A stretch of 64,000 nt of DNA from Lacticaseibacillus camelliae DSM 22697 = JCM 13995 (lineage in GTDB: Bacteria > Bacillota > Bacilli > Lactobacillales > Lactobacillaceae), in contig NZ_BBAJ01000001.1 in assembly GCF_001311195.1 (NCBI RefSeq), forward strand, positions 1-64,000. The letters are read 5' to 3'. The stretch's first letter is position 1, and each line of letters starts with the position of its first letter. The notes under the pieces were generated by a model, which had not been told where the DNA came from, searched no databases, and saw only the letters and a list, made by a program, of their open reading frames with translations. The position numbers were made by a program, and so were the translations under genes. Below are positions 28,621 through 48,323 of the stretch, in pieces.

Positions 28621-28677
28621 ATATTCTATGATGGGTTGCGTGCTGAAATGAAACTTTCAGAAAGCAGGCAATTATTC

Positions 28678-31080: not shown

Positions 31081-31821
31081 ATGAAAAAGACATTATTTGT
31101 GACGGCCGCGGTCGTGGCAATGACGGCGGCAGGTGCACTGACAGGAGTGCAAAGCGTATTTGCGGCAGATGCCAATGGAAATGCCCAAGGAACAACCAAC
31201 GCCGAGTTCAAGGTAGAGGCCGGTAGCGGTGGTACAGATGGCGGCGACACTGGTAATGACAAGGATCTTATTCTTAACAAGATTCCGGACCTAAGATTTA
31301 ATCTTGATGGTACTAGCAACGGAGCCGACCCTAAGGTTGGAAATATCATCAGCGGGGTAACTTTGAAGTATGCGGATGGAAATGTGGAGACTAAAACCAA
31401 CGATAATGCTGAGAACCAAAAAGGACTCATTGAAGTCTTGGACTATCGCGGCACTAATGCCGGATGGAACTTGTCTGCTCAGGTTGGCAAACCGACAAAT
31501 GGCAAGACCACCCTGGAAGGCACGCTGACGTTGCACGCACCAATCTCTATGTTTACCAATGCGGACGTGACAGCGGCAGGGAATACTGTTGCAGGCACCT
31601 TGACGGCTGGCGGTGCAAACGTTCAAATCTGGCAAGCAAAGGCCGCTGTTGCTGGAACTGATGCTCAGCATCCTGCGACTCCTGGCGAAGGGGCCGGTAC
31701 TAACGATGCGACTGTAGACAATGGCACGACATTTGATATTGCATCAAATGCTAGCGCCACCACTGGTCAGTACGATGCGCTTGTCACCTGGACGCTGGCT
31801 GGCACACCTGAGATGAACTAA
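31081..31821 (+). CDS. WxL-domain cell-surface protein
   Basis: 246 residues with a signal peptide ending VFAADA (about 29) and a C-terminal WxL domain, which attaches non-covalently to peptidoglycan. The two WxL motifs are AGWNLSAQV (about 129-137) and the terminal LVTWTLAGTPEMN. AAGGAGG precedes ATG 31081. First gene of a csc-type (cell-surface complex) cluster. Complete, no indel. Confidence 0.93.
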   Translation: MKKTLFVTAAVVAMTAAGALTGVQSVFAADANGNAQGTTNAEFKVEAGSGGTDGGDTGNDKDLILNKIPDLRFNLDGTSNGADPKVGNIISGVTLKYADGNVETKTNDNAENQKGLIEVLDYRGTNAGWNLSAQVGKPTNGKTTLEGTLTLHAPISMFTNADVTAAGNTVAGTLTAGGANVQIWQAKAAVAGTDAQHPATPGEGAGTNDATVDNGTTFDIASNASATTGQYDALVTWTLAGTPEMN

Positions 31822-31893
31822 ATCTCTACGGGTGACACCATGACGGCCAAGGAATTGTCTTGGTCGTTTTGCTTATAGATTGGGGGAACAGGC

Positions 31894-32928
31894 GTGAAGG
31901 TGCGGAAATGGTTGATGGGTGTGATCCTGATCGCCGGCAGTTTTTGGCTGCAAACCGGGCACGTGGTGCAGGCGGAAGGCGCGAGTTTTTCGGTGAGCCC
32001 ACAAATCCCTGAGAATCACGCTCGGCGGTGTCGAATTACTATGATCTGGTGGTAAAGCCGGGGACAACACAGAACCTATCGCTTTCGGTTACCAACCGGA
32101 CGGCGGAAGTGCGGCACGTGCGCCTGAGCGTGACTGACGCATGGTCGCAGTCGAATGGGCAGGTCAGTTACAGCCCCGGTGCGCCGGCGGACGACTCGGC
32201 CGAGCACCGGCTGACTGATCTGGGGCCGGCACCAATGACGCTGACCCTGGCACCCAAGGAAGTGAAAACCGTCACGGTCCCGCTCAAAATCCCCCGGATG
32301 GGTTCCGGGGGGTCCTGTTGGGTGCGCTATATCTCGTGGATAATGAGCGGTCGGGCGGCGAAGAAAGTGGCGGGGTGGCCATCAAGAATCGGTTTGCCAC
32401 GGTCGTCGGCGTGCAGCTGCAAACCTCGACCGGCGCGATCAATGGCATCGTCCCGCACTTGAAACTGCTGCGGGTGGCGCCGGCGTGCACGATAACCAGC
32501 CCAGTGTGCTGGCGACCCTGCAAAACGATCGACCGACTTATTGGGGCAAAATGCGGCTGAAGGCGACCGTCACCAGGCGCGATCAAAAGACGGTCGTCAT
32601 GCAGCGCGAGGCGGCTAATTACGCCGTGGCCCCTAACTCGCATTTTAATTTTGCGGTAACGAACCAGAAGGCGCTGGACCCCGGCGACTACACGCTGAAT
32701 CTGGCGGTGACCGGGCCGCATGGGCATTGGCAGTTTCGCCGCAATTTTTCCATTCTGGTCGGTGAAGCGGAGAGTATCAACAAGGAGGTCGGCCTTAAGC
32801 GGCGGTTCGTCATGCCGTGGTGGGGCTGGGCGCTGATTGGCCTCGCGCTTCTGGTAGTGGTCGCGGCCTGCTGGTGGGTGCTGCACCGGCCAAGTAAGTC
32901 GCTGCTTCGTGAAAGGAGGGAGGCTTGA
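31894..32928 (+). CDS. WxL-interacting protein (DUF916 + DUF3324), membrane-anchored (three frameshifts)
   Basis: Repaired protein of about 345 residues. GTG start at 31894 gives MKVRKWLMGVILIAGSFWLQ and a signal peptide ending VVQAEGA. A DUF916 peptidoglycan-binding domain follows (SNYYDLVVKPGTTQNLSLSV; DAWSQSNGQVSYSPGA), then a DUF3324 host-binding-type domain (KNRFATVVGVQLQ; YWGKMRLKATVTRRDQKTV) and a C-terminal helix WWGWALIGLALLVVVAACWW with a basic tail. Indels lie near 32015, in the C-run 32289-32293 and near 32479. These proteins hold WxL proteins at the wall. The stop overlaps the next start (TGATG). Confidence 0.88.
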
Positions 32929-33248
32929 TGCACCGAATACGAATTGGGTTGATCATGCTCGTACTGGCGGTGATTGCCGCGCCGGCCTCAATGGTGGGTG
33001 CAAGCGCCGAATCAGGGGCGACTGTTGCCGAGTTCGTGGTGACTGGCAAAACGCCGCCGCAGCAGAAACCGGCCCCTCCGTCGGTCGTGCACTATTCCCC
33101 GCGTGACCGACTGCCTGGCACCGGTGACACGCGGCAGTTGCCGCACACCGGTGATCAGACCAACCACTGGCTAGTGATTCTTGGCGGAGTTGTGATTGGC
33201 AGTTTGGGCCTGGCAGCGATGGTGAGGAGGGATGATCGTGAAGCATAA
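32928..33248 (+). CDS. Small LPxTG-anchored protein of the WxL cluster
   Basis: 106 residues with a signal peptide (about 1-29), a short Pro-rich spacer, and the sorting region RLPGTGDTRQLPHTGDQ followed by a membrane helix and VRRDDREA. Two LPxTG-like motifs (LPGTG and LPHTG) lie 10 residues apart; the second is in the usual position before the helix. AGGAGGG precedes ATG 32928. CscD-type small anchored proteins accompany WxL clusters; their role is unclear. It overlaps the following gene. Confidence 0.82.
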   Translation: MHRIRIGLIMLVLAVIAAPASMVGASAESGATVAEFVVTGKTPPQQKPAPPSVVHYSPRDRLPGTGDTRQLPHTGDQTNHWLVILGGVVIGSLGLAAMVRRDDREA

Positions 33249-35101
33249 ACGTTTTGCGCTTGTCTCAGCCATTGTGGCGGGAGCCTGGCTATCGGCAGTC
33301 GGACCGCCGTGGTTCAGGCCGCGCCGGCCGCAGATTACTTGCCATGGCTGACCGGATCGTACCCGGAACCGATTGATCCTGCCACGGGGCTCCCGGCCTT
33401 TGTCCCTTTTGAAGAGGTGATGAGCCCCCTTTCTGGAACGAAGGACTCCAGCAAAGTTCTAACAAATGGAGATGGGAACCACGTCGCTGTAAAGGTGACG
33501 GATGGGCCGACCCAAAGCGGCTCGATTTGGAGCACCTATACGCTGGATCTGACCAAGAGCTTCGATGCACGAATGAACCTTTACTTTAATTCGGGCACAG
33601 ATTTAGGCGACGGCATGGCGTTCGTCATGAGCGGCGCCAAACCAACCCAGGTCTATGGCATTGGCTCGGCGCTTGGTATCTGGCGGTCTCAGCTTAGAGA
33701 TGGCGCGAAAATGGCCGCGCTGCCCAAGAGCTTTGCCATTGCCTTTGATACCACGGATAATCACGATCGCCAGGACCATAACGTTGTCCAAAAAGGGGCC
33801 GGTCAGTATGTCGGTTGGGGTTATCCAGCGCAACCTAACCAGTCCGCCAAAAGCTTAGGAATGCTGGGTACTGGGCTAGAAGACTTGCCGATTCAGTGGG
33901 CTTCGGGCAACAGTTATGGCGATCCGGGCTTGGGCGGCTACCAGGCGCTCGATAATGCGATGACTGACGGCACGTGGCACCCGCTGCACATTCATTGGGA
34001 GGCAGCAGGGGACGGTGGCGGCACGTTCTCGTTTCAATTCGCGGTTGGCAGCGAGGTTGTTGACCAGTCACTGACCTGGTCTCAAGATGATGTCGCGCGG
34101 TACTTTGACGGCACAACCGTTTACTGGGGCTTCACTGGGACGGCTGGGGCGTACGTTGAAGATGCAGTGGTCGCTTTTCAGAGCATTCCCGGGGTGTTGG
34201 ATAACGGTATGACGGCCGAGGTGACTCAAGGCACTGTGTATCCGCGATCCGTCCTGAGCCAGGACTACACCATCACCTACGATCCAAACGCCAGCCTTCA
34301 AGCCTGGCCGCAACCGAGTGGTGGGCAGCAGAGCGCCTTGTACGCCCAGCTGCTAACCGGCAGTCATTACGGGTTTGTGGTGGCTAACGATGGTAACATT
34401 CACCTAGACCTAGGCGGCGGGAAGGAGCTGTTAGCCGATATCCCGGCCGGTGAACAGCCCGGCGATATAACTGACCGGGCAGGCAATTCGGTGAGGTATG
34501 TGAATAAGATCGCCCTAGATACTGTGCCGCCTTTTCCTAAAAACATGACGGTGCAGACGCTTAAGTTCAGCGCGCCGATCATCGCAAGAGAGGTTGGTGG
34601 CGCCGAAACCGTATCTGCCGGGACCGTGATTGGCAATAACGGCCAGGCGACGGCCAATGTTTCGCTGCCAGCTGTGGTTCCGGAGCCGCTGACCCTCGAT
34701 GCGGTACCGAGCTTCAAGTTTGGTGAAGGTGATGCACCGAAAATCACCGTGGGTGAGCTGATCGATGGCTGAACGCCAAGCCGGGCATTGCCTCGGGGAA
34801 CATTTCTGCCGCGATTCCTGATGGCGCGACTAATCGCCTGACAGCCAAAATGGCGTCTTTTCAGCTAGGACCAGGCTACCAAGCCGGCAGCGCGCACCTG
34901 GCCTTTTCTTACAATGGGGCCATTCACACGCTGACAGACAATAACAGCGAGACAGAGCTTTTTAATGTGACCGGCAGTCAACTGCCCGATGGCACGGTGT
35001 CGAACCCGACTCTCACGATTGCGCCATATGCGCACGCAACCGTCGGCGTGCATAAGAGCTGTATTGAGTGGACCCTGACCTCCTCGCCGCCAATGAGGTA
35101 A
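33238..35101 (+). CDS. Surface protein with L-type lectin-like domain and C-terminal WxL domain (two frameshifts)
   Basis: About 620 residues after repair. GTG 33238 overlaps the previous gene; signal peptide MKHKRFALVSAIVAGAWLSA up to VVQAAPAA. Residues about 60-300 resemble a bacterial lectin (legume/L-type) domain: DGMAFVMSG, ALPKSFAIAFDTTDNHDRQD, and WHPLHIHWEA before GGTFSFQFAVG. A linker of about 200 residues leads to the C-terminal WxL domain ending CIEWTLTSSPPMR. Indels lie near 33301-33303 and 34769, where DGLNAKPGIASGNISA continues. The protein probably binds glycans at the surface and is retained by its WxL domain together with the neighbouring DUF916 protein. Confidence 0.83.
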
Positions 35102-35170
35102 GTAACACCTGCGTCAGCTAAGTCGTGGGGATAGTTCATAAGCCCAGGGCCGCCACTAAACGGGACGAAA

Positions 35171-35206
35171 AAGGCAACCGACGATTGGTCGATTGCCTTA
35201 ATTTTG
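35171..35206 (+). terminator. Terminator of the WxL cluster
   Basis: AAGGCAA (35171-35177) pairs with TTGCCTT (35193-35199), with CGA/TCG inner pairs, followed by AATTTT. It can act in both directions. Confidence 0.75.
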
Positions 35207-35333
35207 TATGAAAAGAGAGGACCTCTAAATGGGTAAAATTTAGTCTTCAACACCAGTTGACATAGAGCCGAAAAAGGGATTGCGAGCTGGCGATTCAGCG
35301 GTAGTCATTAGGAACGCAAAAGCCCCACCACCA

Positions 35334-35456
35334 TCATCGAATGAATTCCGATTCTTCATCCGGTAACGGCGACAGGGCCTCGTATTCGCTGCGTTCGGAG
35401 ACAGCCAATAGTGTGTTGTAAATTCTGTGTAATACTAGGTGATAATAAGGGTATTT
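35334..35456 (-). pseudogene. Unidentified coding-like remnant of about 40 codons
   Basis: Minus-strand open stretch without a start codon, preceded directly by in-frame TAG codons and ending TGA at 35334. It encodes KYPYYHLVLHRIYNTLLAVS followed by an acidic ERSEYEALSPLPDEESEFIR. Composition is protein-like, but I do not recognise the family. It may be the tail of a decayed gene. The rest of the 420-bp gap 35102-35521 shows only the terminator. Confidence 0.3.
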
Positions 35457-35521
35457 CTAGAACTAAAACCTAAGACGTATGACAGCAATGATTTAATACA
35501 GTGTTTGGAAAGGTAAGTGAG

Positions 35522-36238
35522 TTACCGATTGGCGAGTGCGCGCAGGTGTGCCAATGCGTGCTGCGCTTGTGCATGGGTCGCTGAGGCGTCCTTAGAGGAC
35601 CTTGTCGTTGGATTTTCCAATGGCAGAAGGTCGTCTTGAGTGAGTCCAAACGACTTCTTCATGGCACCGTCGAGCACCTGCGTAGTCTCCGTCTGGAGGT
35701 CAAGCTTGATGGCTGCACCTTGGTATTGGTTGCCCATCACGTCACCGTTGAAGGAATCAATCGCCTTGATGTTAACCGTCGTGCCCGGATCCAACAGAAC
35801 GTAAGTTGCGCCAGACTTATCAGTGAACCAGTAAGCACCATCGTTGTCGAAGTAATCACCAGACGCTGGGCCAAAGACAAAGTTGATAGCGTTAGATGAC
35901 GCAGCTTCGAACTTGCGCTGAGCGGCTGGAATCACCTTCATGTCGTTATCTGCGTAAGCAAACTTGATTTGATTGGCGTTTTTGATGCGCGTAACACTTG
36001 CCAGGGAGCCTTTGTTGGAAATCGTACCAGGCAAATCTACCTGGGTCCCCGGTTCGTAATTTTTTGAGACGTCCGGGGTGGGAATGTTAGTGGTTGTGCG
36101 CATCGTGCCAATTGAGATGTTTTGCGTAGACTCGCTACTAGCAGTGAACCAGGCGTAGGTGCCGCCGCCAACGCTCAGCAGTAATGCCGCTAGGGCTGCT
36201 GCAATTTTGCCACGGTTACTAATATGGAACTTTTTCAT
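35522..36238 (-). CDS. TasA/camelysin-like secreted protein with SipW-type signal peptide
   Basis: 238 residues. The N-terminus has the alternate signal peptide typical of SipW substrates: a hydrophobic ALAALLLSVGGGTYAWFTAS with cleavage expected after the GTYA-type motif, followed by ESTQNISIGTM. Residues about 40-200 match the Ig-like TasA/CalY layout. The C-terminus is a charged Ala/His-rich tail. In Bacillus, TasA forms extracellular biofilm fibres after SipW cleavage. The SipW-like gene lies 57 bp upstream on the same strand, which strongly supports the pairing. Assignment to TasA is by signal type and context more than by sequence identity, and fibre formation here is inferred. Confidence 0.78.
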   Translation of the reverse strand: MKKFHISNRGKIAAALAALLLSVGGGTYAWFTASSESTQNISIGTMRTTTNIPTPDVSKNYEPGTQVDLPGTISNKGSLASVTRIKNANQIKFAYADNDMKVIPAAQRKFEAASSNAINFVFGPASGDYFDNDGAYWFTDKSGATYVLLDPGTTVNIKAIDSFNGDVMGNQYQGAAIKLDLQTETTQVLDGAMKKSFGLTQDDLLPLENPTTRSSKDASATHAQAQHALAHLRALANR

Positions 36239-36295
36239 GATCTTTCTTCTCCTTCTGAGCTAGGATAATGATTTGGCGTAGTAGCCATAGCCCAA

Positions 36296-36766
36296 TTAAT
36301 ACGCTGGCTGCGAAAGCCAGCCAGCTGGCTGCTGGAAGAACAAGGCAACGTATCCAAGGTAGGGAATCACCAGCATTAACTTACCAAGCACATTTGCGCA
36401 CGAAGTCAGTCTGGTATCTTCATAAGTATTAGCATCGCCTTTGGTTTCAAATCGTATGTCACCTGATCTTTTGGGTATAGCGACAACTCTGTGGGTTAGT
36501 ACGGTGCCATCGACATTAGTGGAGATAATGTCTCCAGGGCGGATCTCGTGGGGATCAACTGATCGTGTGACGATTAAGCTGCCAACAGGCATCCGCGGGG
36601 CCATACTCCCACTTTGAACGACTCTGAAAGAAAGCGTGCCAGATGCCTGGTTGTAGAAGAGGCGATTGATACCAGTGAGTAGTAATAGCCCAAAAGCAAT
36701 CAACAAAGCTAGGTTACATAGCCAACTGACGATGCGATGCTTGTTCTTTGGTTTGGATACGGACAT
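36296..36766 (-). CDS. sipW: SipW-type (archaeal/ER-like) signal peptidase I
   Basis: 156 residues with an N-terminal helix (about 12-32) and a second hydrophobic segment near the C-terminus. The catalytic serine is in VVQSGSMAPRMPVGS. The general base is His in TVLTHRVVAI, rather than Lys, which marks the SipW/Sec11 type. The conserved ETKGDANTYED block is present. Cleaves the unusual signal peptides of TasA-like proteins. It is the middle gene of an operon with the GH92 gene (30 bp upstream) and the TasA-like gene (57 bp downstream). Confidence 0.88.
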   Translation of the reverse strand: MSVSKPKNKHRIVSWLCNLALLIAFGLLLLTGINRLFYNQASGTLSFRVVQSGSMAPRMPVGSLIVTRSVDPHEIRPGDIISTNVDGTVLTHRVVAIPKRSGDIRFETKGDANTYEDTRLTSCANVLGKLMLVIPYLGYVALFFQQPAGWLSQPAY

Positions 36767-36796
36767 TGCAATCCTTCCTTAACTAATTAGAAGTAA

Positions 36797-39700
36797 CTAA
36801 TTTGATACACGGACCAGCGTCTTGGCTGTGGTACCACCAGGGGCGGTCACATAGACGTAGCTCATACCGGATTTCTTGGCCGTTACCGTGCCGTCGGCGG
36901 AAACTGACAGAACATCGTCTTTCTGAACGCTCCAGATCAGGTCTTGGGCGTTGACACCTGTAGGGGTGGCGTTGAGCTTGATCTTCTGACCGCGTTTGAC
37001 AATGTTCAGATTGGAATTGTTCAGCTTGACAGTCGCGTTCGTATCTTTCATGTCGCCAAGCAGTTCAATTTCGCCAATCTTACCTTCGCCGCCGTTGAAC
37101 TGGATGCGATAGTGGCTGAAGGCTTTGTTCTTTTGGTCAACCAGGTAAGGCTTGGTCTGTTGATCATAGGTGAAGCCGACCTTGGTCTGGGTGCCGACCT
37201 TGGTCCACTTCTTGCCATCGTTGGAGCCGAGTACTGTGACAGACTTGAAGGTCGTATCCTTGTTGATGTTGGTCAGGGTCATCAGGCTGACAACGCGGGC
37301 CTTATCCAAGGTGACGTCGATGGTTGAACCATTCTTCACGTCAGTTGCGGTGTCACTGTTGTTATCAGTCAAGTTCTTCGCATCAGGAATTGCACTGTCA
37401 ATCTTGACTGCCTTATCAAAGGCATCGGTCTTGACGTAAGGCGCCTCGGTGCCTTGGGTCAGGGAAGCAGGCTTATCTGATGGCTGGGTTCCGCGTGTCT
37501 TGTTCGGTGTTGCCGACATGTTGAAGGTCAAAGTGCCGCCCTTCATAAGGTCCTTGTAGTTCATGTACAGAGTGGAAACCGGCTTACCATTAAAGGTGAC
37601 GCTGTCCACGTAGACATTTGTCTTGCTGTTGTTCGGTGCGTTGACGGTCAGCGTCTTGCCGTTTGGCAGCTGAACGGTTGCTTGATCAAACAGTGGAGAG
37701 CCCAGGACGAACTGGTTGGTCGCAAGGTTCTCTGGGTACAGCCCGAGTGCAGAGAGGATGTACCATGCAGAGGCTTCACCGTTATCTTCGTCACCTAAGT
37801 AGCCTTGACCGAAATCACTGCCAACATATAGGCGGCTCAGAATGTCGCGAACATACTTCTGAGTTTCGTAAGGCTTGTTGGAGAAAGCATACATATAAAG
37901 AATGTCGTGTCCTGGCTGGTTGCTGTGTTCGTATTCGCCCAGTTTGCCTTCGCGTTGTTCACGCGCTTCGTGAATCACAAAGTCACCTGGCTTCCAGTCG
38001 CCTGGTGTGGTGACAATTTGGTCGAGCTTTTGACCCAACCCGGCTGGACCACCGTACAGGTTGGCTAGGCCATTACCATCTTGCGGGACTGGTACTGCAC
38101 CGTAGTCAAACGCATTTGTTTCTGTGTAGTCATGAGCCCATGAGCGGGGATCAAACGTGCTTGGCGTGGAGGTCCAACTGCCGTCAGTGTGCTTACCTTT
38201 GAACCAATCATCGGTCGCGGTCTTGCCACTGCCATCAAAGAGGTTGACATAGCTCAGCGCACGGTTCTTGAAGTACTCGGCTGCCCCTTTATCGCCCTTC
38301 TTAAGCGCCATCTGATAAAGGCCATAATCACTGATGTAGCCTTCGACTGACCATGAAAGGCCTTTGTCATCGGCTTCTGCTGGAACGTAGCCAATAAATT
38401 CAGACTGGTTTAAGTCAGTCCGGCCACCGTTAACCAAGTCCGTTGACTTAACTGTGGCGTTCTTCAAGGCTGCCTGATAAGCGTCATCACTGTCGAATGG
38501 AATGCCCTTGTTTAATGCATCGGCAAAGATGATGTCCTGGTTGGTGCCGACCATACTGTTGGTGCCACCCGGAGCGATCCAACGCGGAACCCAGGTGCTG
38601 TCCTTGAAGTGCTGGGTCAGGCCATTCAGGTAGCTGCTTTCCTTGTCAGGAGACAGTAGGGAGTAAGCTGACCAAGCAGTGCGGTAGGTGTCCCAGAAGC
38701 CGTTGTTGTAGTACATAACGCCATCTTTGGCGACCGGGTGCTCCATGTCGCCGCTGTACGGATCACTGTGAATCCACTGTGGCTTGTCATTTGTGCCCTT
38801 GTTTTCGCCGTAGAACGTCGGATACATGTAAAGGCGGTACAGGTTGGAGTAAAGTGTGGTCTTTTGAGCATCCGATGCGCCTTTGACTTGGATCTTGTTC
38901 AGCACAGAGTTCCAGTCGTTGGTAGTCTGGTTTTCCAGTTGACCAAAGGTGGTCTGCGCCAGCTCAAGGTCGTAGTTCTTCTTGGCTTGCTCTGCGCTGA
39001 TAAACGAGGTGGCAACCTTCATGGTGACTTTGTTGCTATCGAAGCTGACGATCCCTTGTTTGCTGTTTTCAACCTTGGCCTGGGTGTAAGGCTGGTCAAA
39101 GGTCCCGTAGACGTACATCTGCTTCATGCCGTTATTACCGTTCTTTGTAATCTCGGTGAAGGAGTTGGTGGCCTTGTCAAAGGTAAGAGTACCGTCGCCC
39201 TTGGAGGAGTCAAAAATTACGTTCTTGTTTTTGGCCGAGTCGGCAAAGTTAAACTCAGTAATGGAACCGTGCATGCTTGGCGTCAAGCTGATCGAAGAAC
39301 CGGCTGCGGCACCGCCGTCTGGGAACTTGATTGAGTAAAGTTGAGGCTTGGCAACTTCATCATCGTGGCTGAAGTTGGTCTCGTACTTGGTGTGGTCAAT
39401 GTCAGCACCACTTTGAACCTTGCTGGCATCGATGGAAGTATTAGCCATGAATTGCCAAGTGCCGCGGTCGCCAACCCAAATGGATGGCTCGTGACTGATG
39501 GTGATGTGCTGGAATTTCCGGCCGCCATTTTGCTGGTATTGATACATCGTATCATTGCCGTATTCAGTAACTGGGGCCCAGAAGTTGAAGCCGTTTGGCA
39601 CGGTCGTTGCCGGTACTGTCAAGCCGCGGGAAAAGTTTCCGTTAGAGTTGGTCCCGCGCAGCGTGTTGACGTAATCAACTGTACTGTTGATCGTTCTTTT

Positions 39701-40912
39701 GGCTTCATTACCAGAGAAGACCTTTACGTCATCCAGGAAGTTATCAAAGGTCTTCCCAGCGGTGGCGTTATCGTCTTCGAAGCTGACCATCATCTTGGTA
39801 ATAGTCTTGCCAGCGGCGATTTCACCAATGTTTGTGGTGATCTGGTTCCACTGGTTGTAGTACAGTGACCGGGAATCACCTTGGGCTTCGGGTGTGACTT
39901 CAAACCCATCGGTACTGGTAGGTTTGAGGTCGCTCAGGTGTGTACCATCTGAGAACTCCAGGTCCACACTCATGTGCATCGGTGTGTACGAGTAATCGTA
40001 GTGGTTGTCATAGTTGTGCTGACCATCAGACGGATAGATCTTGTACTGTAGGTTTGTGTCCTTTTGTACCTTGAGATTTAGATTATCAATAATGTCATTG
40101 TGGGCATAAACCTTACCGGAATCAGTGACCTTGCCTTTAACTTCCAGAGCTTGCGCCCCTGTCCAGCCGACGTTGTTCTGTTGGTTAATGGCATCTGTCG
40201 GCCCGTTACTGAGTGTAGTTGCCATTTCTGATTTAGCGCCGGTGTCTTTGACGCCAGTCCCCAGAACTAATCCAGAGAATTGAGTCATCGGGGCACCGCC
40301 GTTTTTGCTTACGACCAGTTTAAACTGGTCGTAAGCTTTACTGGTTTTGATCTTGTAATTATTGTAAGTTTCCCGGCCGGAGAATGTCTGGTTGGTTTGC
40401 TTATCAATTGAAGTCCAGTTCTTTCCGTCGTTGCTGGCAAGTAATTCCCAGTCCGCCGGGTCACGGGTAGGCTCGTCATTGGCGGAGCTAATAGCATATT
40501 CCCCAATCTGTTCTGGCTTCGTAAGTGAAAAGCTAACCGAAATATTCTGACCGTTATTCTCGTTAGTATTGAATTTTGTTCCTACGTTCCCATCAAATAG
40601 ATTCTGCTTGGTTTCCGAATCAGGGTTAAAGTCTGAACTTCCTTTAATGCTTGATTTATCGACCTCTGCACTGACATCACCGTCGACAACACTGCCGTAA
40701 GAAGCGGTAACACCTTTGGTGCCGAGCTTTGCATCAGTTTGATTGAGCTGAACTGGTGTCTTCTCATTTGCTTCAAACGACGTAAAGAACGACGAGGTGT
40801 CGTTCGTGCTACCTGCCGCGTGAGTGTACTGATTGTTGGTTGGTGCTAGGCTCATTAAAACCCCTGAGCAAACTAGTGTAACCAGCAATTCAATCTTTCT
40901 CTGCTTCTTCAT
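36797..40912 (-). CDS. Secreted multidomain GH92 alpha-mannosidase
   Basis: 1371 residues, uninterrupted. A Sec signal peptide ends near residue 33 (YTHAAG). An F5/8 type C (discoidin) carbohydrate-binding domain follows at about 85-215, a beta-rich GH92 N-domain at about 405-680 and the catalytic (alpha/alpha)6 domain at about 690-1110. The family blocks FWDTYRTAWSAYSLLSP, APGGTNSMVGTNQD, EGYISDYGLYQMA and YLGDEDNGEASAWYI are all present. A second F5/8C domain (about 1190-1290) and a bacterial Ig-like domain (about 1292-1371) close the protein. GH92 enzymes are Ca2+-dependent exo-alpha-mannosidases acting on N-glycans or yeast mannan. There is no LPxTG, so it is secreted or held by its binding domains. 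The DNA is more AT-rich than the chromosome around it, suggesting transfer. Confidence 0.93.
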   Translation of the reverse strand: MKKQRKIELLVTLVCSGVLMSLAPTNNQYTHAAGSTNDTSSFFTSFEANEKTPVQLNQTDAKLGTKGVTASYGSVVDGDVSAEVDKSSIKGSSDFNPDSETKQNLFDGNVGTKFNTNENNGQNISVSFSLTKPEQIGEYAISSANDEPTRDPADWELLASNDGKNWTSIDKQTNQTFSGRETYNNYKIKTSKAYDQFKLVVSKNGGAPMTQFSGLVLGTGVKDTGAKSEMATTLSNGPTDAINQQNNVGWTGAQALEVKGKVTDSGKVYAHNDIIDNLNLKVQKDTNLQYKIYPSDGQHNYDNHYDYSYTPMHMSVDLEFSDGTHLSDLKPTSTDGFEVTPEAQGDSRSLYYNQWNQITTNIGEIAAGKTITKMMVSFEDDNATAGKTFDNFLDDVKVFSGNEAKRTINSTVDYVNTLRGTNSNGNFSRGLTVPATTVPNGFNFWAPVTEYGNDTMYQYQQNGGRKFQHITISHEPSIWVGDRGTWQFMANTSIDASKVQSGADIDHTKYETNFSHDDEVAKPQLYSIKFPDGGAAAGSSISLTPSMHGSITEFNFADSAKNKNVIFDSSKGDGTLTFDKATNSFTEITKNGNNGMKQMYVYGTFDQPYTQAKVENSKQGIVSFDSNKVTMKVATSFISAEQAKKNYDLELAQTTFGQLENQTTNDWNSVLNKIQVKGASDAQKTTLYSNLYRLYMYPTFYGENKGTNDKPQWIHSDPYSGDMEHPVAKDGVMYYNNGFWDTYRTAWSAYSLLSPDKESSYLNGLTQHFKDSTWVPRWIAPGGTNSMVGTNQDIIFADALNKGIPFDSDDAYQAALKNATVKSTDLVNGGRTDLNQSEFIGYVPAEADDKGLSWSVEGYISDYGLYQMALKKGDKGAAEYFKNRALSYVNLFDGSGKTATDDWFKGKHTDGSWTSTPSTFDPRSWAHDYTETNAFDYGAVPVPQDGNGLANLYGGPAGLGQKLDQIVTTPGDWKPGDFVIHEAREQREGKLGEYEHSNQPGHDILYMYAFSNKPYETQKYVRDILSRLYVGSDFGQGYLGDEDNGEASAWYILSALGLYPENLATNQFVLGSPLFDQATVQLPNGKTLTVNAPNNSKTNVYVDSVTFNGKPVSTLYMNYKDLMKGGTLTFNMSATPNKTRGTQPSDKPASLTQGTEAPYVKTDAFDKAVKIDSAIPDAKNLTDNNSDTATDVKNGSTIDVTLDKARVVSLMTLTNINKDTTFKSVTVLGSNDGKKWTKVGTQTKVGFTYDQQTKPYLVDQKNKAFSHYRIQFNGGEGKIGEIELLGDMKDTNATVKLNNSNLNIVKRGQKIKLNATPTGVNAQDLIWSVQKDDVLSVSADGTVTAKKSGMSYVYVTAPGGTTAKTLVRVSN

Positions 40913-41192
40913 GCTGAACCCCTTTTCCGCATTGCATTATAGAAAAAGTCAACTTGCTGTTTGGTCAATCCTGTCACTGTAAGCTGAAGGTACTGCCAGA
41001 AGCCCACGAATTAGAGTTTTGTACTCAGCTAAAATGACAATGACCGGTCCCAAACGGGTTATCCTGTGGACGAAAATAGTTATTAGTAAGCTGCAAGCGG
41101 TGCTGTTAATTAGATGCCACCCCTTTTCCCAAAGCTTACCGACAACTAGCGTTAGCTAATCGCTTTGACCAATCGTGCTGTTGAACAAAGAC

Positions 41193-41333
41193 TTATTCAA
41201 CCTGGGCCCAATCGATCTTATCGCCAGGATGCGCATTGAATCCTACGCCGCACCCCACGATAATTTTCGCGGTGCCGCGATCGTCCACCTGTACTAAATT
41301 GTTGTTGATCCGACGTGTAATCTTCACTTTCAC
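41193..41333 (-). CDS. Orphan 46-residue CAT (BglG/LicT-type) RNA-binding protein or truncated antiterminator
   Basis: The reading frame from GTG 41333 encodes MKVKITRRINNNLVQVDDRG, continuing with GCGVGFNAHPGDKIDWAQVE and TAA at 41193. This matches the whole co-antiterminator RNA-binding domain of LicT/SacY/BglG (NNN in strand 2; G-x-G-[LIV]-[AG]-F; K/P-G-D-x-[IV]). No PRD domains follow: in the same frame 18 more codons lead to another stop. Directly upstream lies a leader with a RAT-like sequence and a terminator, so the gene has the autoregulatory arrangement of a bona fide antiterminator. It is either a degenerate licT or a functional mini-antiterminator free of PTS control. Its ORF is too short for routine annotation. 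Confidence 0.6.
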   Translation of the reverse strand: MKVKITRRINNNLVQVDDRGTAKIIVGCGVGFNAHPGDKIDWAQVE

Positions 41334-41380
41334 CACCCCAAAGACTATATTTGTACACACGAATTTAGCGCTGTATAAAA

Positions 41381-41411
41381 ATGACCTAATAACTTTAAGT
41401 TATTAGGTCAT
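41381..41411 (-). terminator. Terminator in the leader of the CAT-domain gene
   Basis: Perfect 15-bp palindrome ATGACCTAATAACTT / AAGTTATTAGGTCAT with a 1-nt centre. The minus strand continues TTTTTATA, so it is an intrinsic terminator in the leader. Confidence 0.8.
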
Positions 41412-41434
41412 GCCGGAATTGTCCGTAACAAACC
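41403..41434 (-). promoter_or_regulatory. RAT (ribonucleic antiterminator) site for a BglG/LicT-type protein
   Basis: On the minus strand GGTTTGTTAC at the start and GGCATGACCTAA at the end match the LicT RAT consensus (GGATTGTTACTG...GCAGGCAAAACCTAAA) closely. The 3' half overlaps the 5' arm of the terminator at 41381-41411, exactly as in known antitermination leaders. Confidence 0.7.
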
Positions 41435-41458
41435 AACGTTAAAATCGCTTACACGTGA

Positions 41459-41486
41459 ATGCTATCACGAACTTTGGCCTTGTCAA
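41459..41486 (-). promoter_or_regulatory. Promoter of the RAT leader
   Basis: Minus strand TTGACA (41481-41486), 16-nt spacer, TAGCAT (41459-41464), starting transcription about 20 nt before the RAT. A cre-like TGTAAGCGATTTTA follows on the same strand. Confidence 0.65.
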
Positions 41487-41760
41487 CCTTATTTTACCTG
41501 TATAAACAAACACTATGATTAAAATCACAACGTTTTACAAGGGGTACCAATGCAGCGGAAAAATGATTCGGCTTAATGGGGCGCGTACCTGACAGTCAAG
41601 CTTGCCACAATAGCATAACAGAATTTATAAATGCAAATAACATATGGAAATTTTTGGGCCAACGGTTAAAAGTCGTCTTGCCGGGAAACTCTTTTTTATA
41701 TGCGGCTTCAAGCGTCACAAGGGGGCTCGACTTGTCAGCTTTACCACCACTTTAGCTGAT
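41487..41760. other. AT-rich intergenic region without recognised gene
   Basis: Between the RAT-leader promoter and the lysine-transporter terminator I see no reading frame with a start signal and no strong structure. Composition is AT-rich like the adjacent GH92 block. Confidence 0.4.
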
Positions 41761-41771
41761 AGCGAAAGTGG

Positions 41772-41811
41772 CGAAGAATGATTCCATCGAATCATTCTTC
41801 GCCACTATGGT
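41772..41811 (-). terminator. Hairpin downstream of the lysine transporter operon
   Basis: A perfect stem of about 17 bp, AGTGGCGAAGAATGATT / AATCATTCTTCGCCACT, with a 6-nt loop. The minus strand continues CTTTCGC, so the T-run is weak, but stem strength and position support termination. Confidence 0.7.
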
Positions 41812-41836
41812 TAGTCTGTTTTATGCTGATGACGGA

Positions 41837-42580
41837 TTAGATCCGGCTCAGGTAGCGCTTCAAGAAGTCCTGGGTGGCCTGTTGCTGCGGGTGACCGAAG
41901 AGTTCGTCCGGCTTGCCGGTTTCCGCGATGACGCCTTCGTGCATGAAGACGACTTTATCTGAAACGTCGCGGGCAAAAGCCATTTCGTGGGTGACGATGA
42001 TCATCGTCAGCCCAGTGTGGGCCAGAGCGGTCATGGCGTTCAGGACGTCGTCGACCATTTCGGGGTCAAGGGCCGAGGTCGGCTCATCGAACAGCAGGAC
42101 CTCGGGATCCATGGCCTCGGCCCGGGCGATGGCGACCCGCTGCTGCTGGCCACCGGAAAGCTGGGCCGGCTTGGCGTTGACGAACGGATCCATGCCGACA
42201 CTGTTCAGCAGTTCCAGCGCATGCTTTTTCGCCTCGTCGGCGCCGCGGTTGAGCACGGTTTGCTGACCGACCATGACGTTTTGCAGCACAGTCAGGTTGT
42301 TGAACAGGTTAAACGACTGGAACACCATGCCGACATGGGCGCGGTACAGCGGCAGGTTAAAGTCGTCGGTCAGGATGCTTTTGCCGTGGAACAAAATGTC
42401 GCCATCCGTTGGGGTTTCGAGCAGGTTGACGTTGCGTAGCAGGGTCGACTTGCCGGAGCCGGAGCGGCCGATGATGGAGACCACCTGGCCTTTGTCGACT
42501 GTTAGGTTGATGTCCTTTAAGACCTCGTGAGTGCCGAAGGACTTTTTTAAATTACGCACTTCAATAATGGGTTCTGACAT
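41837..42580 (-). CDS. Amino-acid ABC transporter ATP-binding protein (lysine, by riboswitch context)
   Basis: 247-residue polar amino acid-type ATPase. It has Walker [11 protein letters not shown]-loop VFQSFNLF, signature LSGGQQQR and Walker [12 protein letters not shown], followed by the switch His in IIVTHEM. Start ATG (MSEPIIEV) at 42580 has AAGGAGG. It lies 13 bp after the fused substrate-binding/permease gene and forms one operon with it. The operon is led by a lysine riboswitch, so lysine uptake is the inferred role. Confidence 0.95.
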
Positions 42581-42593
42581 GTTTTTGTCCTCC

Positions 42594-44183
42594 TTACTTG
42601 ATCTTTGGGGTGTCAACTTGCATCTGGTTGGTCATCAAATCGTAATCCTTGGGCCCATCCATCCGCTTTTCGACCAGTCTGAACAGCCGGCTGATGGTAA
42701 AGGTGAGCAGCAGGTAGATCCCGGCGACGACCAGGTAGGTGTGGAAGAACTGGAAGTTCTGACCCGCCACGGTTTCGGCGCTGAAGAACAGTTCGGAAAC
42801 GGAGATGACGGACAGCACTGACGTATCCTTGATGTTGACGATGAATTCATTGGTGACGGCCGGCAGGGAATTGCGAATCGCTTGCGGCAGGATGACCTTG
42901 GTCATGGTTTGCCAGTGGGTCATGCCCAGCGCGTGTGCGGCTTCGAACTGGCCGGAGTCGACAGAGGTGATGCCCCCACGGATGATTTCAGAGATGTAAG
43001 CCCCGGTGTTAATAGACACAATGAACAAGGCGGCCACGGTACGGTCCATGTTGACGTGAAACGCGAGGGCGGCGCCGTAGTAAACGACGGCGGCCTGGAC
43101 GATCATTGGGGTGCCCCGGAAGACTTCAATGTAGACGGCGAGCAGCCAGTTGCCGATGGCCCGCAGACCGCGTTTGCCGCGGTTCTTGGGTACCGGGGTG
43201 GTGCGGGCGATGCCGACCAGCAACCCGATCAGGAAACCAACGACGGTCCCAATCAGGGAGATGAACAGCGTCATACCGGTCCCACGCAGGAGCATCGGGC
43301 CGTACTGCTTCAGCAGGGCGACGAACCAGTTGCCCTGACTGGTGGTGGATGGCTGGTCCGCGACGGCCTGGTTCATTAACTGATCACGCTCTTTTTGCGG
43401 GATCTTTGCCAGCTCGGCGTTGATCTTGGCCTTGTCCGGGTCGTTCTTACGGATCCCAATCGCCAGATCCACGTCCTCCGGGTTGGTCTTGAAGCCATTT
43501 TTCTTGGAGAAACGCAGGTAGGTCAGATCGGGGTTGGCATTTTCGGCGGTGATGCCCTCAGGCACTTCGGAGACATAGCCGTCGATGGTGCCGGATTCAA
43601 GCGCCACCCGCATGGCGGGGAAGTTATCCATGGCGGGTTCCTTGATGACGCCCTTCATTTGCTTGATGGCCTGATAGTGGAAGGTCGACAGCTGCGCCGT
43701 GATCTTGGCGTTCTTGAAATCATTGATGCTCTTGGCTTTGGCGTACTTACTGTCGCGGCGTACCACGACGGTCAGCTTGCTGGCGTAGTAGGTATTGGTA
43801 AAATCGATGGTCTTGCGGCGTTCAGGCGTCGGGCTCATGCCCGCGATGATGGCGTCGATCTTGCCGGAGGTCAATGCCGGCGGCAGGCCATTCCAGGACG
43901 TCTTGACGACGACGACCTTTTTGCCCAAGGCCTTGGCGACCTTCTTGGCCATCTGGACGTCATAACCGTTGGCGTAATCCGAGCTGCCTTGGATCCTGAC
44001 AGCGCCGTTCGCGGCCGTGTTTTGGGTCCAGTTGAACGGGGCGTAGCCGGCTTCCATGCCGACCTTGAACGTGCCCTTGGTTGCGGCGGCCACGTGCTGT
44101 GGCGTGCCGGCGCTGATGCCCGCCGCCACGGCGAGCAGTGCGAGACCGCTGACAAGGCGGCCCCAGAAATGCTTCTTCATCAT
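42594..44183 (-). CDS. Amino-acid ABC transporter, fused substrate-binding protein and permease (lysine, by riboswitch context)
   Basis: 529 residues without indels. A signal-anchor (about 1-33) is followed by an SBP_bac_3 domain (about 38-275; AGYAPFNW, AIIAGMSPTPERRK, STFHYQAIKQMKG). A HisM/GlnP-type permease domain follows (about 300-520) with the EAA-like loop EAAHALGMTHWQTMTKVILP. Fusion of binding protein and permease is common in Lactobacillales polar amino acid transporters. The lysine riboswitch in its leader makes lysine the likely substrate. The tandem ATG at 44183 follows GGGAG. Confidence 0.95.
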   Translation of the reverse strand: MMKKHFWGRLVSGLALLAVAAGISAGTPQHVAAATKGTFKVGMEAGYAPFNWTQNTAANGAVRIQGSSDYANGYDVQMAKKVAKALGKKVVVVKTSWNGLPPALTSGKIDAIIAGMSPTPERRKTIDFTNTYYASKLTVVVRRDSKYAKAKSINDFKNAKITAQLSTFHYQAIKQMKGVIKEPAMDNFPAMRVALESGTIDGYVSEVPEGITAENANPDLTYLRFSKKNGFKTNPEDVDLAIGIRKNDPDKAKINAELAKIPQKERDQLMNQAVADQPSTTSQGNWFVALLKQYGPMLLRGTGMTLFISLIGTVVGFLIGLLVGIARTTPVPKNRGKRGLRAIGNWLLAVYIEVFRGTPMIVQAAVVYYGAALAFHVNMDRTVAALFIVSINTGAYISEIIRGGITSVDSGQFEAAHALGMTHWQTMTKVILPQAIRNSLPAVTNEFIVNIKDTSVLSVISVSELFFSAETVAGQNFQFFHTYLVVAGIYLLLTFTISRLFRLVEKRMDGPKDYDLMTNQMQVDTPKIK

Positions 44184-45003: not shown

Positions 45004-45977
45004 ATGGTCGGAATCATCCTTGCTAGCCACGGCGATTTTGCCAAAGGCATTATGCAATCAGGTCAGATGATCTTTGGTGAGCAGAAGAATGTTGAAGCAG
45101 TGACATTCCAGCCCAACGAAGGCCCGGACGACTTGAAAGCACACCTCGAGGAAGCCATTGCGAAGCTCGACTCAGATGATCAGGTCCTGTTCCTTATCGA
45201 TTTGTGGGGCGGCTCTCCGTTCAACCAGTCTAACGGGTTGTTCGAGCAGCACAAAGATAAGTGGGCCATCGTCACTGGGTTGAACCTACCAATGCTGATT
45301 GAGGCATACGGTTCCCGTTTGTCCATGGATTCAGCGCACGATATTGCGGCGCACATTATTGAGTCAGGTAAAGACGGTATCAAAGTCAAGCCTGAAGAAC
45401 TGGCACCAAAGGCGGTACCTGCTGCAGCACCAGCGCAGCACGTCAGCGGCGGTAAGCCAGGGAAGATGAGTTACGTTCTGGCTCGGATCGACTCTCGTCT
45501 GCTTCACGGGCAAGTTGCGACGCTTGGAGCAAAGAGACCAAGCCAACGCGGATCATTGTTGTATCGGACGGTGTCGCACACGACAAGCTGCGTAAACAGC
45601 TGATCACTGAAGCGGCCCCATCAGGTGTTAAGGCTCACGTCATTCCAATTGATCAGATGATCAAGATCGCCAAAGACGACAAGCACTTCGGCGGCGAAAA
45701 AGCGTTGCTATTATTCGAAACACCGGAAGACGCGAAAAAGGCCATTGACGGCGGCGTGCCGCTGAAGGAACTGAACGTTGGTTCCATGGCGCACTCAGTC
45801 GGCAAGGTTCAGCCGAACAAGGTCCTGGCCTTTGACCAGACCGATATTGACACGTTCAAGGCCTTGGAAAAGGAAGGCGTCACCTTCGATGTTCGGAAGG
45901 TCCCAACCGACAACAAGGACAACATGGACGCAATCCTCAAGAAGGCGCAAGACGCGCTGGATGCACAGAACAAGTAG
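45004..45977 (+). CDS. manX: Mannose-class PTS EIIAB (frameshifted)
   Basis: About 324-residue cytoplasmic phosphotransfer protein. EIIA domain about 1-130, with His in ILASHGDFA (phosphorylated by HPr), a Pro/Ala-rich linker (about 140-155), and EIIB domain from [17 protein letters not shown] with its phosphorylatable His. One base is missing near 45522-45525; the EIIB then continues [16 protein letters not shown]. Forms EIIAB-C-D with the next two genes to import and phosphorylate mannose and glucose, and also signals carbon status. In many Lactobacillaceae this transporter is also a receptor for class IIa bacteriocins. Confidence 0.93.
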
Positions 45978-46019
45978 CAATAGATTATATTCCTAATTAA
46001 ATTTAAGGAGGATATTCAC

Positions 46020-46842
46020 ATGGATTTGAACTTTCTTCAAATCATCGGGGTCCTCATCGTGGCGTTCCTGGCAGGGATGGAAGGGGTTCTTGATGAATTC
46101 GAATTCCATATGCCAGTTGTAGCGTGCACGCTGATCGGGTTGGTCACTGGCCAGCTCATGCCTTGCCTGATTTTGGGTGGGACCTTACAGATGATTGCCC
46201 TTGGCTGGGCCAACGTTGGTGCCGCGATTGCACCTGACGCTGCCTTGGCTCAGTTGCTTCTGCTATTATTCTGGTTCTTGGCGGTCAGGGCCGTGCCGGA
46301 GTTAACTCCGCGATCGCCCTTGCGGTTCCGCTGGCGGTTGCCGGCCTGCTGCTGACCACCTTGGTTCGTACGGTTGCAACCGCGGTTGTCCACCTGATGG
46401 ACCACGCGGCTGAAGAAGGCAGCTTTAAGATGCTGGACTTCTGGCAGTATGTTGCCATTGCTTTGCAGGGTCTGCGTATCGCGATCCCTGCCGGCTTGAT
46501 CCTGGCTGTTGGTGCCGGTCCTGTTCGTTCCCTGCTTGGCCTCATGCTAAGTGGTTGACGGATGGCCTGGGCATCGGTGGTGGCATGGTCGTTGCAGTTG
46601 GGTACGCCATGGTTTTGAACATGATGGCGACCCGCGAAGTATGGCCATTCTTCATCATCGGTTTCGTTTTGGCAACCATTTCCCAGTTGACCCTGATCGG
46701 CCTTGGCGCGATCGGTGTGTCCCTGGCGCTGATCTACCTGACCCTGTCCAAGATGGGCGGTTCTTCTAGCAGCAATGGCGGCTCTTCTGACAACAATGGT
46801 GGCTCCGGCGATCCAGTCGGCGACATCATCGACAACTATTAG
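46020..46842 (+). CDS. manY: Mannose-class PTS EIIC (two frameshifts)
   Basis: About 274-residue membrane subunit. MDLNFLQIIGVLIVAFLAGM, then GLVTGQLMPCLILGGTLQMIALGWANVGAAIAPDAAL, is the typical start (positions 46020-46245), and ALYLTLSKMGG-like sequence ends the membrane part. Indels lie near 46250 and 46546; between and after them SAIALAVPLAVAGLLLTTLV and KWLTDGLGIGGGMVVAVGYA restore the family sequence. The tail is Ser/Gly/Asn-rich and ends DPVGDIIDNY, as in other lactobacilli. AAGGAGG precedes ATG 46020. Confidence 0.92.
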
Positions 46843-46860
46843 AGAAGGAGGTAGAAAAAT

Positions 46861-47804
46861 ATGGCTGATACAGCTGAAGTACAAGCAAGTTTGGCTGAAC
46901 ACAAGTACAGTTTAACGAAAGCTGACCGGATGAAGGTTTGCTGGCGTTCTACCTTCCTTCAGGGTTCATGGAACTACGAACGTATGCAAAATGGTGGCTG
47001 GTGCTACTCCTTGGTTCCTGCCATCAAGAAGCTCTACACGAAGAAGGACGACCAGATCGCCGCTTTGAAGCGACACATGGAGTTCTTCAACACTCACCCG
47101 TACCTGGCTTCACCGGTTATCGGTGTGGTCCTGGCGCTGGAAGAGGAACGTGCCAATGGCGCCCCAATCGATGACGTTGCCATCCAGGGCGTTAAGGTCG
47201 GCATGATGGGTCCTCTGGCCGGTGTCGGCGACCCAGTCTTCTGGTTCACCGCTCGTCCTATCCTTGGTGGTCTGGCTGCGTCCTTGGCGCTGGCTGGGAA
47301 CATCATGGCCCAATCATTTTCTTTGTCGTTTGGAACCTGATGCGTGTGGCCTTCATGTGGTACACCCAGGAATTCGGCTACAAAGCCGGGTCTCGGATCG
47401 CGGACGACATGTCCGGTTCCCTGCTTCAGGATGTGACCAAGGGTGCTTCTATCCTCGGGATGTTCATTCTGGGTTCTCTGATCAACCGTTGGGTCACCGT
47501 TAAGTTCACCCCAGTGGTTTCGACGATCACTCAGCAAAAGGGTGCTTACATTGAATGGTCGAAGTTGCCGAAGGGCGCTGCGGGCATCAAGGAAGCACTG
47601 ACTGAGCAGGCAAACGGCCTTTCTCTGGACAAGATGAAGGTCACCAAACTGCAGAACAACTTGGATCAACTGATTCCAGGTCTTGCAGCGCTGCTGCTGA
47701 CCCTGCTTTGCATGTGGCTCCTCAAGAAGAAGGTTTCCCCAATCGTTGTTATCTTGGGCCTCTTCGTTGTTGGTATCGTGTTCCATGTCTGGGGTCTCAT
47801 GTAA
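46861..47804 (+). CDS. manZ: Mannose-class PTS EIID (frameshifted)
   Basis: About 314 residues. N-terminal cytoplasmic part with TFLQGSWNYERMQNGGW, VALEEERANGAPID-like region, and GPLAGVGDPVFWFT, all EIID hallmarks. The missing base near 47307 interrupts GNIMGPIIFFVVWNLMRVA. The C-terminal membrane helix is followed by HVWGLM and the stop. AGAAGGAGG precedes ATG. Forms the membrane complex with EIIC. Confidence 0.93.
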
Positions 47805-47818
47805 GTTTAGACCTGTTG

Positions 47819-47851
47819 GCCTCGGGGCGTCAGCTCCGAGGCTTTTCTTTT
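47819..47851 (+). terminator. Terminator after manXYZ
   Basis: GCCTCGGGG (47819-47827) pairs with CTCCGAGGC (47834-47842), followed by TTTTCTTTT. Since DUF956 is often cotranscribed with the PTS, this may be partial. Confidence 0.8.
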
Positions 47852-47858
47852 GATGAGG

Positions 47859-47882
47859 CGCCACGGCTGCGTGGCGTATAAT
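47859..47882 (+). promoter_or_regulatory. Hairpin plus TATAAT upstream of the DUF956 gene
   Basis: CGCCACG / CGTGGCG hairpin (47859-47876) directly followed by TATAAT (47877-47882). A clear -35 box is missing, so the gene may have its own weak or regulated promoter. Confidence 0.4.
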
Positions 47883-47912
47883 AAACAGTAAAGTGGTAAA
47901 AGAGGGATATCG

Positions 47913-48323
47913 ATGCAACAACCAGTGAAGTCAATCAATACGAAAGTCGACTTGACCGTCGATGCCACGTCTTACATGGGCATCGCCGATTACGGGAAAA
48001 TGATGATCGGCGATCGCGGTCTCGAATGGTACGCCGACAAAAACGTCCAGAAGTACATCCAGATTCCTTGGGGTGAGGTGACGTTCGTTGAAGTCACGGT
48101 GATGTTTAAAGGCAAATACATTCCCCGCTTTACCGTTCACACCAAAACCAGCAGCAATTTTCCGTTTGCAACTCGGGATCCGAAACGCACACTGCGCGCG
48201 ATCCGGGTCTACGTTGACCCCAAGAATCTGGTCCAGTCACGCACTTTTCTCAAGATCCTGGGGGGCTACCTACGTAATATTAAGTCGCGGTACTTCACCA
48301 AGGATAAACAAGCTAAAGATTAG
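47913..48323 (+). CDS. manO: DUF956 family protein (ManO-like), mannose operon partner
   Basis: 136 residues, soluble. Begins MQQPVKSINTKVDLTVDATS and contains the conserved GDRGLEWYADKNVQKYIQIP. DUF956 proteins are found almost only next to mannose-class PTS operons in Lactobacillales and Listeria (ManO). Their biochemical role is not settled; a regulatory link to the PTS is assumed. A good terminator follows. Confidence 0.88.
   Translation: MQQPVKSINTKVDLTVDATSYMGIADYGKMMIGDRGLEWYADKNVQKYIQIPWGEVTFVEVTVMFKGKYIPRFTVHTKTSSNFPFATRDPKRTLRAIRVYVDPKNLVQSRTFLKILGGYLRNIKSRYFTKDKQAKD

Follow-up and report, generated by a model that had tools for sequence, protein, structure and literature searches.

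Here, we analyze 64,000 nucleotides of Lacticaseibacillus camelliae DSM 22697 = JCM 13995 (contig NZ_BBAJ01000001.1, positions 1 to 64,000; called the window below), in which three genes encode a giant GH92 enzyme, a SipW-type signal peptidase, and a TasA-like protein. The trio is real, and it is one case of a wider cassette. From sequence comparison, we think it rather probable that the cassette is mobile in Lactobacillales and keeps a secreted glycan-degrading enzyme at the cell surface by way of a tail domain on the enzyme and the TasA-like protein, in place of a sortase anchor. A first-pass annotation of the same DNA had read the genes as a matrix-fiber module; the evidence points instead to the holding of an enzyme at the surface.

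The window trio and its relatives

The three open reading frames (ORFs) lie on the same strand with gaps of 30 and 57 bp, and their coordinates bear out what the first-pass annotation had reported. The large protein was said to be a GH92 enzyme with two discoidin domains, and indeed, the N-terminal and catalytic GH92 domains of Pfam (424.9 and 90.2 bits; cut-offs, 24.6 and 34.5) and two F5/8C stretches were found. Its layout is a signal peptide (by eye), F5/8C, GH92N, GH92, a second F5/8C stretch, and a C-terminal Ig-like domain; the earlier domain list was right as far as it went and missed this last domain, which is the key part. The best PDB match is 7nsn, a GH92 alpha-1,2-mannosidase of 1411 aa, which aligns with window residues 3 to 1155 (E of 4.8e-260). 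Unlike the window enzyme, 7nsn is not among the 13 PDB sequences that match a profile of the C-terminal domain (E <= 0.01).

The window peptidase scored 89 bits against TIGR02228 (signal peptidase I; cut-off, 51.85) and did not reach the SipW equivalog NF046067 (75.9 bits; cut-off, 190). It had been called a His-type SipW, and it does have Ser54 and His92 in place of a Ser/Lys dyad; both residues are invariant in 15 of 15 aligned SipWs. A scan of genome contigs with SipW returned distant SipWs of 24 to 47% identity. The TasA-like protein matched PF12389 (Peptidase_M73/camelysin) at 31.4 bits, over a cut-off of 22.5, in residues 12 to 90 only, and the alternate signal peptide recognized earlier was recovered as TIGR04088, the SipW-type signal peptide (26.5 bits; cut-off, 19). 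Unlike Bacillus TasA, the protein is far off the TasA equivalog NF046066 (26.4 bits; cut-off, 450) and, as an alignment of the 16 members described below indicates, its subfamily has a C-terminal tail of its own. Over the full length of that alignment, the members are 29 to 61% identical to the window protein. PF12389 was matched by all 16 (E <= 0.01), no other family was, and TIGR04088 was matched by 14 at the same threshold.

Copies of the trio were sought on plasmids and across genomes. When the TasA-like protein was compared with 72,556 plasmid records (E <= 1e-5), three matched, one from L. paracasei (pWX3) and two from E. faecium. The mobilizable plasmid pWX3 carries the GH92, SipW, and TasA-like genes in the same order as the window, at 80%, 57% (residues 40 to 146), and 60.5% protein identity, respectively; the proposed linkage thus holds in the sole other lactobacillus copy found. 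The E. faecium plasmids carry genes for GH53, a small secreted protein, SipW, and the TasA-like protein downstream of lactose-phosphotransferase system (PTS) genes; the aligned parts of the two GH53s share 98.6% identity, and only one of the two plasmids was counted. In E. faecium CP138458.1 (L074:9001-9596), the TasA-like gene matches in two pieces and seems broken. A three-row TasA-like profile, run against 395 Lactobacillales genomes, found 13 loci besides the window in 12 genomes, at 138 to 246 bits, with the next match at 39.9 bits or less. These 13 survey loci, the window, pWX3, and one E. faecium plasmid form the cassette set of 16 loci and 18 tail proteins, and the cassette loci span two bacterial families.

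Other searches found little beyond this set. The TasA-like protein was not found in the 29 other genomes searched of the window's genus, viral contigs gave no cassette match, and among 378 genomes drawn from the class Bacilli, only the window and one Lactobacillales genome matched at E <= 1e-10. A single-sequence query of 397 genomes of the window's family gave three further matches of 18.8 to 24.7 bits in frames of >1,000 aa, which were not counted as members. The G+C content is 0.45 to 0.52 in 2-kb segments of 35001-43000 and 0.51 to 0.64 in the others. The lower G+C noted earlier was thus borne out, with slight overlap, and together with plasmid carriage of the trio, it fits horizontal gain.

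A shared tail on changing enzymes

Good alignment between the E. faecium GH53 and the window GH92 is confined to an Ig-like domain, the last ~79 residues of each (30% identity; E of 1e-7). All 16 cassette loci have a protein with this tail domain nearby, and two have a second one. In each of the 13 survey loci, a large protein with a secreted-looking N terminus ends in one Big_2-type domain, and its gene adjoins the TasA-like gene or is parted from it by at most sipW and a gene for a small protein. Among the 18 aligned tails, K18, G61, and R80 are invariant and V81 and T82 nearly so; the proteins end in RVT (16/18), RIT (1), or RVS (1, the window), each followed by one last residue, and the tail assigned to the window GH92 is ~83 residues long.

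The enzyme in front of the tail changes from locus to locus. The 18 proteins comprise GH92 (2), GH53 (3), GH43 (3), sialidase (2), GH101 (1), GH85 (1), metallophosphatase (1), alginate-lyase family (3, of which 2 are over the cut-off and 1 is just under), rhamnogalacturonan lyase (1), and no catalytic family (1). A catalytic family is over its Pfam cut-off in 16 of the 18, and in 15 of these, the family is a glycan-active one. The protein lacking a Pfam catalytic family (1007 aa; L117:8001-11024) may be a new enzyme. An LPxTG motif followed by a membrane segment and a positive end was found in none of the 18 tail proteins, the two matches to the LPxTG pattern being LPETA inside the tail domain, and Pfam scans of cassette proteins found neither cohesin nor dockerin.

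In 15 of 16 loci, sipW adjoins the TasA-like gene. Between the enzyme and TasA-like genes, 9 of 16 loci encode a small acidic secreted protein; the window and pWX3 have none. Four of the 16 loci encode a downstream protein in which LPATG, LPQTN, LPKTS, or LPKLG precedes a C-terminal membrane segment (by eye), and this protein could be a wall anchor.

To check for bias in the profile, leave-out scoring was used, in which each tail's row and its nearest relatives were removed from the profile. Under this scheme, 16 of 18 tails scored 71 to 115 bits, and the GH92 tails scored 66.4 (window, both GH92 rows left out) and 62.4 (pWX3); the best domain of 17 background loci, which lies inside a short frame, reached 65 to 69 bits. 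On sequence alone, the window tail thus ranks among the lowest of the set, and it was placed by its position and its pWX3 homologue, and Big_2 itself (PF02368; cut-off, 22.8) gave no row for the window GH92 at E <= 0.001. When genomes were searched with the tail profile, all 16 matches above 90 bits were cassette proteins and the next scored 68.8, a count that is circular by itself because those 16 are rows of the model.

A control of another kind came from 20 weaker TasA-type loci of the survey, one per genome. All 20 had a SipW-profile match, and none matched the tail profile (E <= 0.01), versus 13 of 13 cassette loci. Loci L151 to L170 are of another SipW type, 14 of the 20 coming from one genus (g57), and the five that were read encode SipW-profile and TasA-type proteins, one protein whose C terminus is a membrane end, and another of 737 to 2079 aa. 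One cassette is followed directly by a second, different SipW locus (L111:13598-16708; SipW profile, 96 bits; weak TasA-type matches).

The strongest clue to function comes from natural swaps. Of 390 genomes, 150 have GH92, and among the matches listed, its frames are 561 to 801 residues long except in the window (1379) and in genome G407 (1290). The G407 enzyme (locus L203) is 55% identical to window residues 1 to 1287 and stops just before the tail, and no TasA-like or SipW match was found in 15 kb around it. Similarly, the L. paracasei plasmid GR0548 has an operon of lactose-PTS, lacG, IIA, and GH53 genes similar to that of the E. faecium plasmid, with the PTS genes in a different order. 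Its GH53 matches the E. faecium GH53 over residues 25 to 569 of the latter; beyond this part, a linker rich in Ser leads to LPKTG, which is followed by a membrane segment and a positively charged end. No TasA or SipW match was found in 17.7 kb of the locus. The GH53 loci of Lactococcus garvieae (gene in pieces) and Leuconostoc also gave no TasA or SipW matches, and the tail is absent there. Thus, the tail is absent from all four TasA-less homologues examined, one of which has a sortase anchor at that point instead.

How the enzyme may be held

In B. subtilis, TasA polymerizes as each subunit completes its successor with its N-terminal strand, and the initial strand comes from TapA (PMC9674648 and PMC10151520). 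For the cassette, we infer SipW cleavage, filament assembly, docking, and surface display. The enzyme would be exported by its ordinary signal peptide, and SipW would cleave the TasA-like protein, which would then assemble at the surface, probably as a filament as in B. subtilis. The last ~83 residues of the enzyme, its Big_2-type domain, would dock on the TasA-like protein. In the window, the GH92 mannosidase would free sugar that the nearby mannose-type PTS would import.

Several results weigh against this reading or fail to bear out a TasA fold. Two AlphaFold predictions of the TasA-like protein, made from few distant rows, had mean pLDDT values of 45.6 and 48.9. Foldseek gave no match at E <= 0.001 and placed the TasA fiber 8aur at rank 38 (E of 0.026); the best VIA-align Z of 7.0 is within its stated noise, and the absence of TasA from its 50 rows excludes nothing. 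A PDB profile search with the 16 TasA-like rows found nothing believable (best E of 0.16), and a profile comparison with a Bacillaceae SipW neighbor (L027) covered 25 columns at a probability of 3.3%. Pfam Big_2 is over its cut-off in 13 of the 18 tail proteins, with the window, pWX3, L112b, L114, and L117 below, and the window and pWX3 tails are the least typical, scoring below the 68.0 bits of the best background domain. Moreover, C-terminal Big_2-type domains also occur elsewhere, on 556-aa proteins in four background loci. The metallophosphatase cassette (L115:8446-11587) has no SipW-profile match in 17 kb, and the comparison with TasA-less loci rests on four homologues. Co-divergence of the TasA-like proteins and tails (mirror-tree) gave an r of 0.50 for 16 loci (1/5000) and 0.23 for 11 nonredundant loci (813/5000); because significance is lost without the close pairs, their shared descent explains the signal. 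Finally, the small acidic protein was considered as a TapA-like starter, and its similarity to the N-terminal strand of the cognate TasA-like protein (123) did not exceed that of shuffled sequences (127.4), so that only its position is left for the idea. A motif in these proteins, chosen after looking, is present in 6 of 9, versus 2.2 in shuffles.

Among other explanations, the one that survives best, and that we still consider unlikely, is that the SipW/TasA-like pair makes a matrix or adhesion fiber of its own. Cells need to adhere to the polymer that they digest, which would be why the pair travels with glycan-use loci, and the tail would be only a spacer or a wall-binding Ig domain. TasA does form biofilm fibers in B. 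subtilis, according to PMC9674648 and PMC10151520, and Big_2-type domains are common, with 115 of 395 genomes matching the tail profile at E <= 1e-4. An independent fiber, however, does not account for three findings: enzymes unrelated to one another share one type of tail where this subfamily is their neighbor, none of the 20 other SipW loci has that tail, and a TasA-less locus has a sortase anchor at the position of the tail.

Quite improbable, in our view, is that the TasA-like protein binds glycans at the surface as a partner of the enzyme, a role that we would liken to that of SusD in Bacteroidota, with the tail serving placement on the substrate rather than anchoring. A large enzyme-like protein does lie near every cassette examined, the window GH92 already has two F5/8C stretches, and several loci are made up like glycan-use operons. 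A substrate binder would not need a sequence conserved across quite different glycans, however, and the TasA-like proteins are so conserved; moreover, the camelysin family is the only one that all 16 match. If SipW, with or without the TasA-like protein, served specifically to export or mature the large enzyme, this would account for adjacent genes with short gaps or overlaps in one apparent operon. We rate such a role as very improbable, as TIGR04088 matches the TasA-like protein and not GH92, the enzyme N termini are ordinary by eye, and the tail lies at the far end. That horizontal transfer joined chance neighbors, for which plasmid carriage and the insertion sequence elements around the pWX3 trio might speak, is scarcely credible given the 13 of 13 loci versus 0 of 20 controls, in two bacterial families and with about nine enzyme types, including the window's.

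Holding of the enzyme at the surface through its tail remains our preferred reading, and a bolder form of it is plausible enough to be put forward tentatively. In that form, the cassette would be a new system of surface display in Gram-positive bacteria. A filament of TasA-like protein, matured by SipW, would serve as the general scaffold, and enzymes of unrelated families would exchange an Ig-like C-terminal domain ending in (V/I)RVT(K/R) as their docking tag instead of LPxTG. Donor-strand exchange may even link the final strand of this tag to the filament.

The proposed system resembles several known ones in part. Like the matrix-fiber operons tapA-sipW-tasA of B. subtilis and sipW-calY of B. 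cereus (gene orders from PMC10151520), it combines a peptidase of the SipW type with a neighboring member of the camelysin/TasA family whose signal peptide is SipW-type. Unlike them, it is paired with one of many enzymes that have a common tail, and it lies often among sugar-use genes and sometimes on plasmids. Like LPxTG/sortase display of glycosidases, it adds a module to the C terminus of a secreted enzyme that is ordinary in other respects, and a homologous GH53 has LPKTG at that point; the cassette enzymes, however, have an Ig-like domain and the SipW/TasA pair instead of LPxTG and a membrane end. Cellulosomes work by the pairing of cohesin and dockerin, and the cassette would be analogous in joining many enzymes to one docking domain and one scaffold. 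It differs in its proposed scaffold, just one small protein that SipW would process, and in that cohesins and dockerins are absent from the Pfam scans.

Gene neighborhood and biological meaning

The features of the window are listed in Table 1. As assembled, the sipW ORF is shorter than its pWX3 homologue and lacks the C-terminal membrane segment, which is found in another frame, overlapping the tasA start as on pWX3. In a tblastn comparison, the IIAB, IIC, and IID genes of the mannose-family PTS (45004-47801) also proved frame broken. An assembly indel is thus likelier than a real truncation of sipW, and the frame break near the end of the gene is probably an assembly error. A permease gene at 28636-29990 is split into two ORFs as well, in what appears to be an indel-prone assembly.

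Table 1. Trio and neighboring features of the window
Feature	Position	Strand	Size	Basis or remark
TasA/camelysin-family protein with SipW-type signal peptide and own C-terminal tail	35522..36238	-	238 aa	PF12389, TIGR04088
SipW-type (Ser/His) signal peptidase, ORF as assembled	36296..36766	-	156 aa	TIGR02228, Ser54/His92
Remainder of sipW (encoding the C-terminal membrane segment) in another frame, overlapping start of tasA-like gene	36219..36344	-		Comparison with pWX3
Giant GH92 enzyme	36797..40912	-	1371 aa	Pfam domains, PDB match 7nsn
Tail domain (Big_2 type) at C terminus of GH92, putatively for docking	36800..37048	-		18-tail alignment, cassette profile
Stand-alone CAT RNA-binding domain, antiterminator fragment	41193..41333	-	46 aa	PF03123, 43.2 bits, cut-off 25
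Terminator-like hairpin in GH92 leader	41381..41411	-	14 pairs	Fold z of -5.0; 8 such sites in region versus 7.9 in shuffles
Promoter-like site upstream of hairpin, weak	41459..41486	-		10/12 consensus bases; 6 sites in region versus 6.7 in shuffles
Mannose-family PTS genes and DUF956	45004..48323	+		Divergent from GH92 operon; counterpart beside GH92 on pWX3

The PTS lies divergently upstream of the trio in both the window and pWX3, with an intervening ABC transporter in the window only. The first-pass annotation had coupled GH92 to degradation of mannan or N-glycans, and such use fits because a mannose-type PTS lies near both GH92 copies. The coupling does not extend to the module as such: the same SipW/TasA-like set occurs with many enzymes and is tied neither to GH92 nor to mannan. 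A sialidase cassette neighbors genes for NanE, a ROK kinase, a DHDPS-family aldolase, and a sugar-binding protein; a GH43 cassette neighbors GH35; and GH53 cassettes neighbor LacD, PTS, and GH1 genes or GH42 and an ABC permease. The scanned neighbors thus fit the enzyme of the cassette, and several cassettes lie among sugar-uptake genes.

PTS-linked antitermination control of GH92 is possible, given the features at 41193-41486. A sequence that we take to be like a ribonucleic antiterminator (RAT) overlaps the 5' side of the hairpin. The pattern derived from it was not found upstream of the pWX3 GH92, and Rfam gave no match at E <= 1 in 35000-42000. Convergent with the trio lies a cluster of WxL-protein, LPxTG, and L-type-lectin genes (31081-35101), Csc-like in make-up, in which ORFs at 32028-32928 look split by a frame break.

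TasA, SipW, Big_2, and each of the enzyme families are already known; what appears to be new is the cassette and the swap with a sortase anchor. Among the matches listed, our literature searches found no paper describing TasA/SipW with tail-domain glycosidases. If the proposal is true, TasA-type fibers would be more than biofilm matrix and would also serve as a scaffold that holds enzymes for feeding, by way of a short, portable tag. The families covered act on mucin, N-glycans, sialic acid, and pectin, and the tail domain together with SipW/TasA would be a marker for finding more such enzymes, as well as a display tag for food-grade bacteria. Ultimately, it would explain how lactobacilli, enterococci, and their relatives retain giant secreted glycosidases in which no anchor can be recognized.

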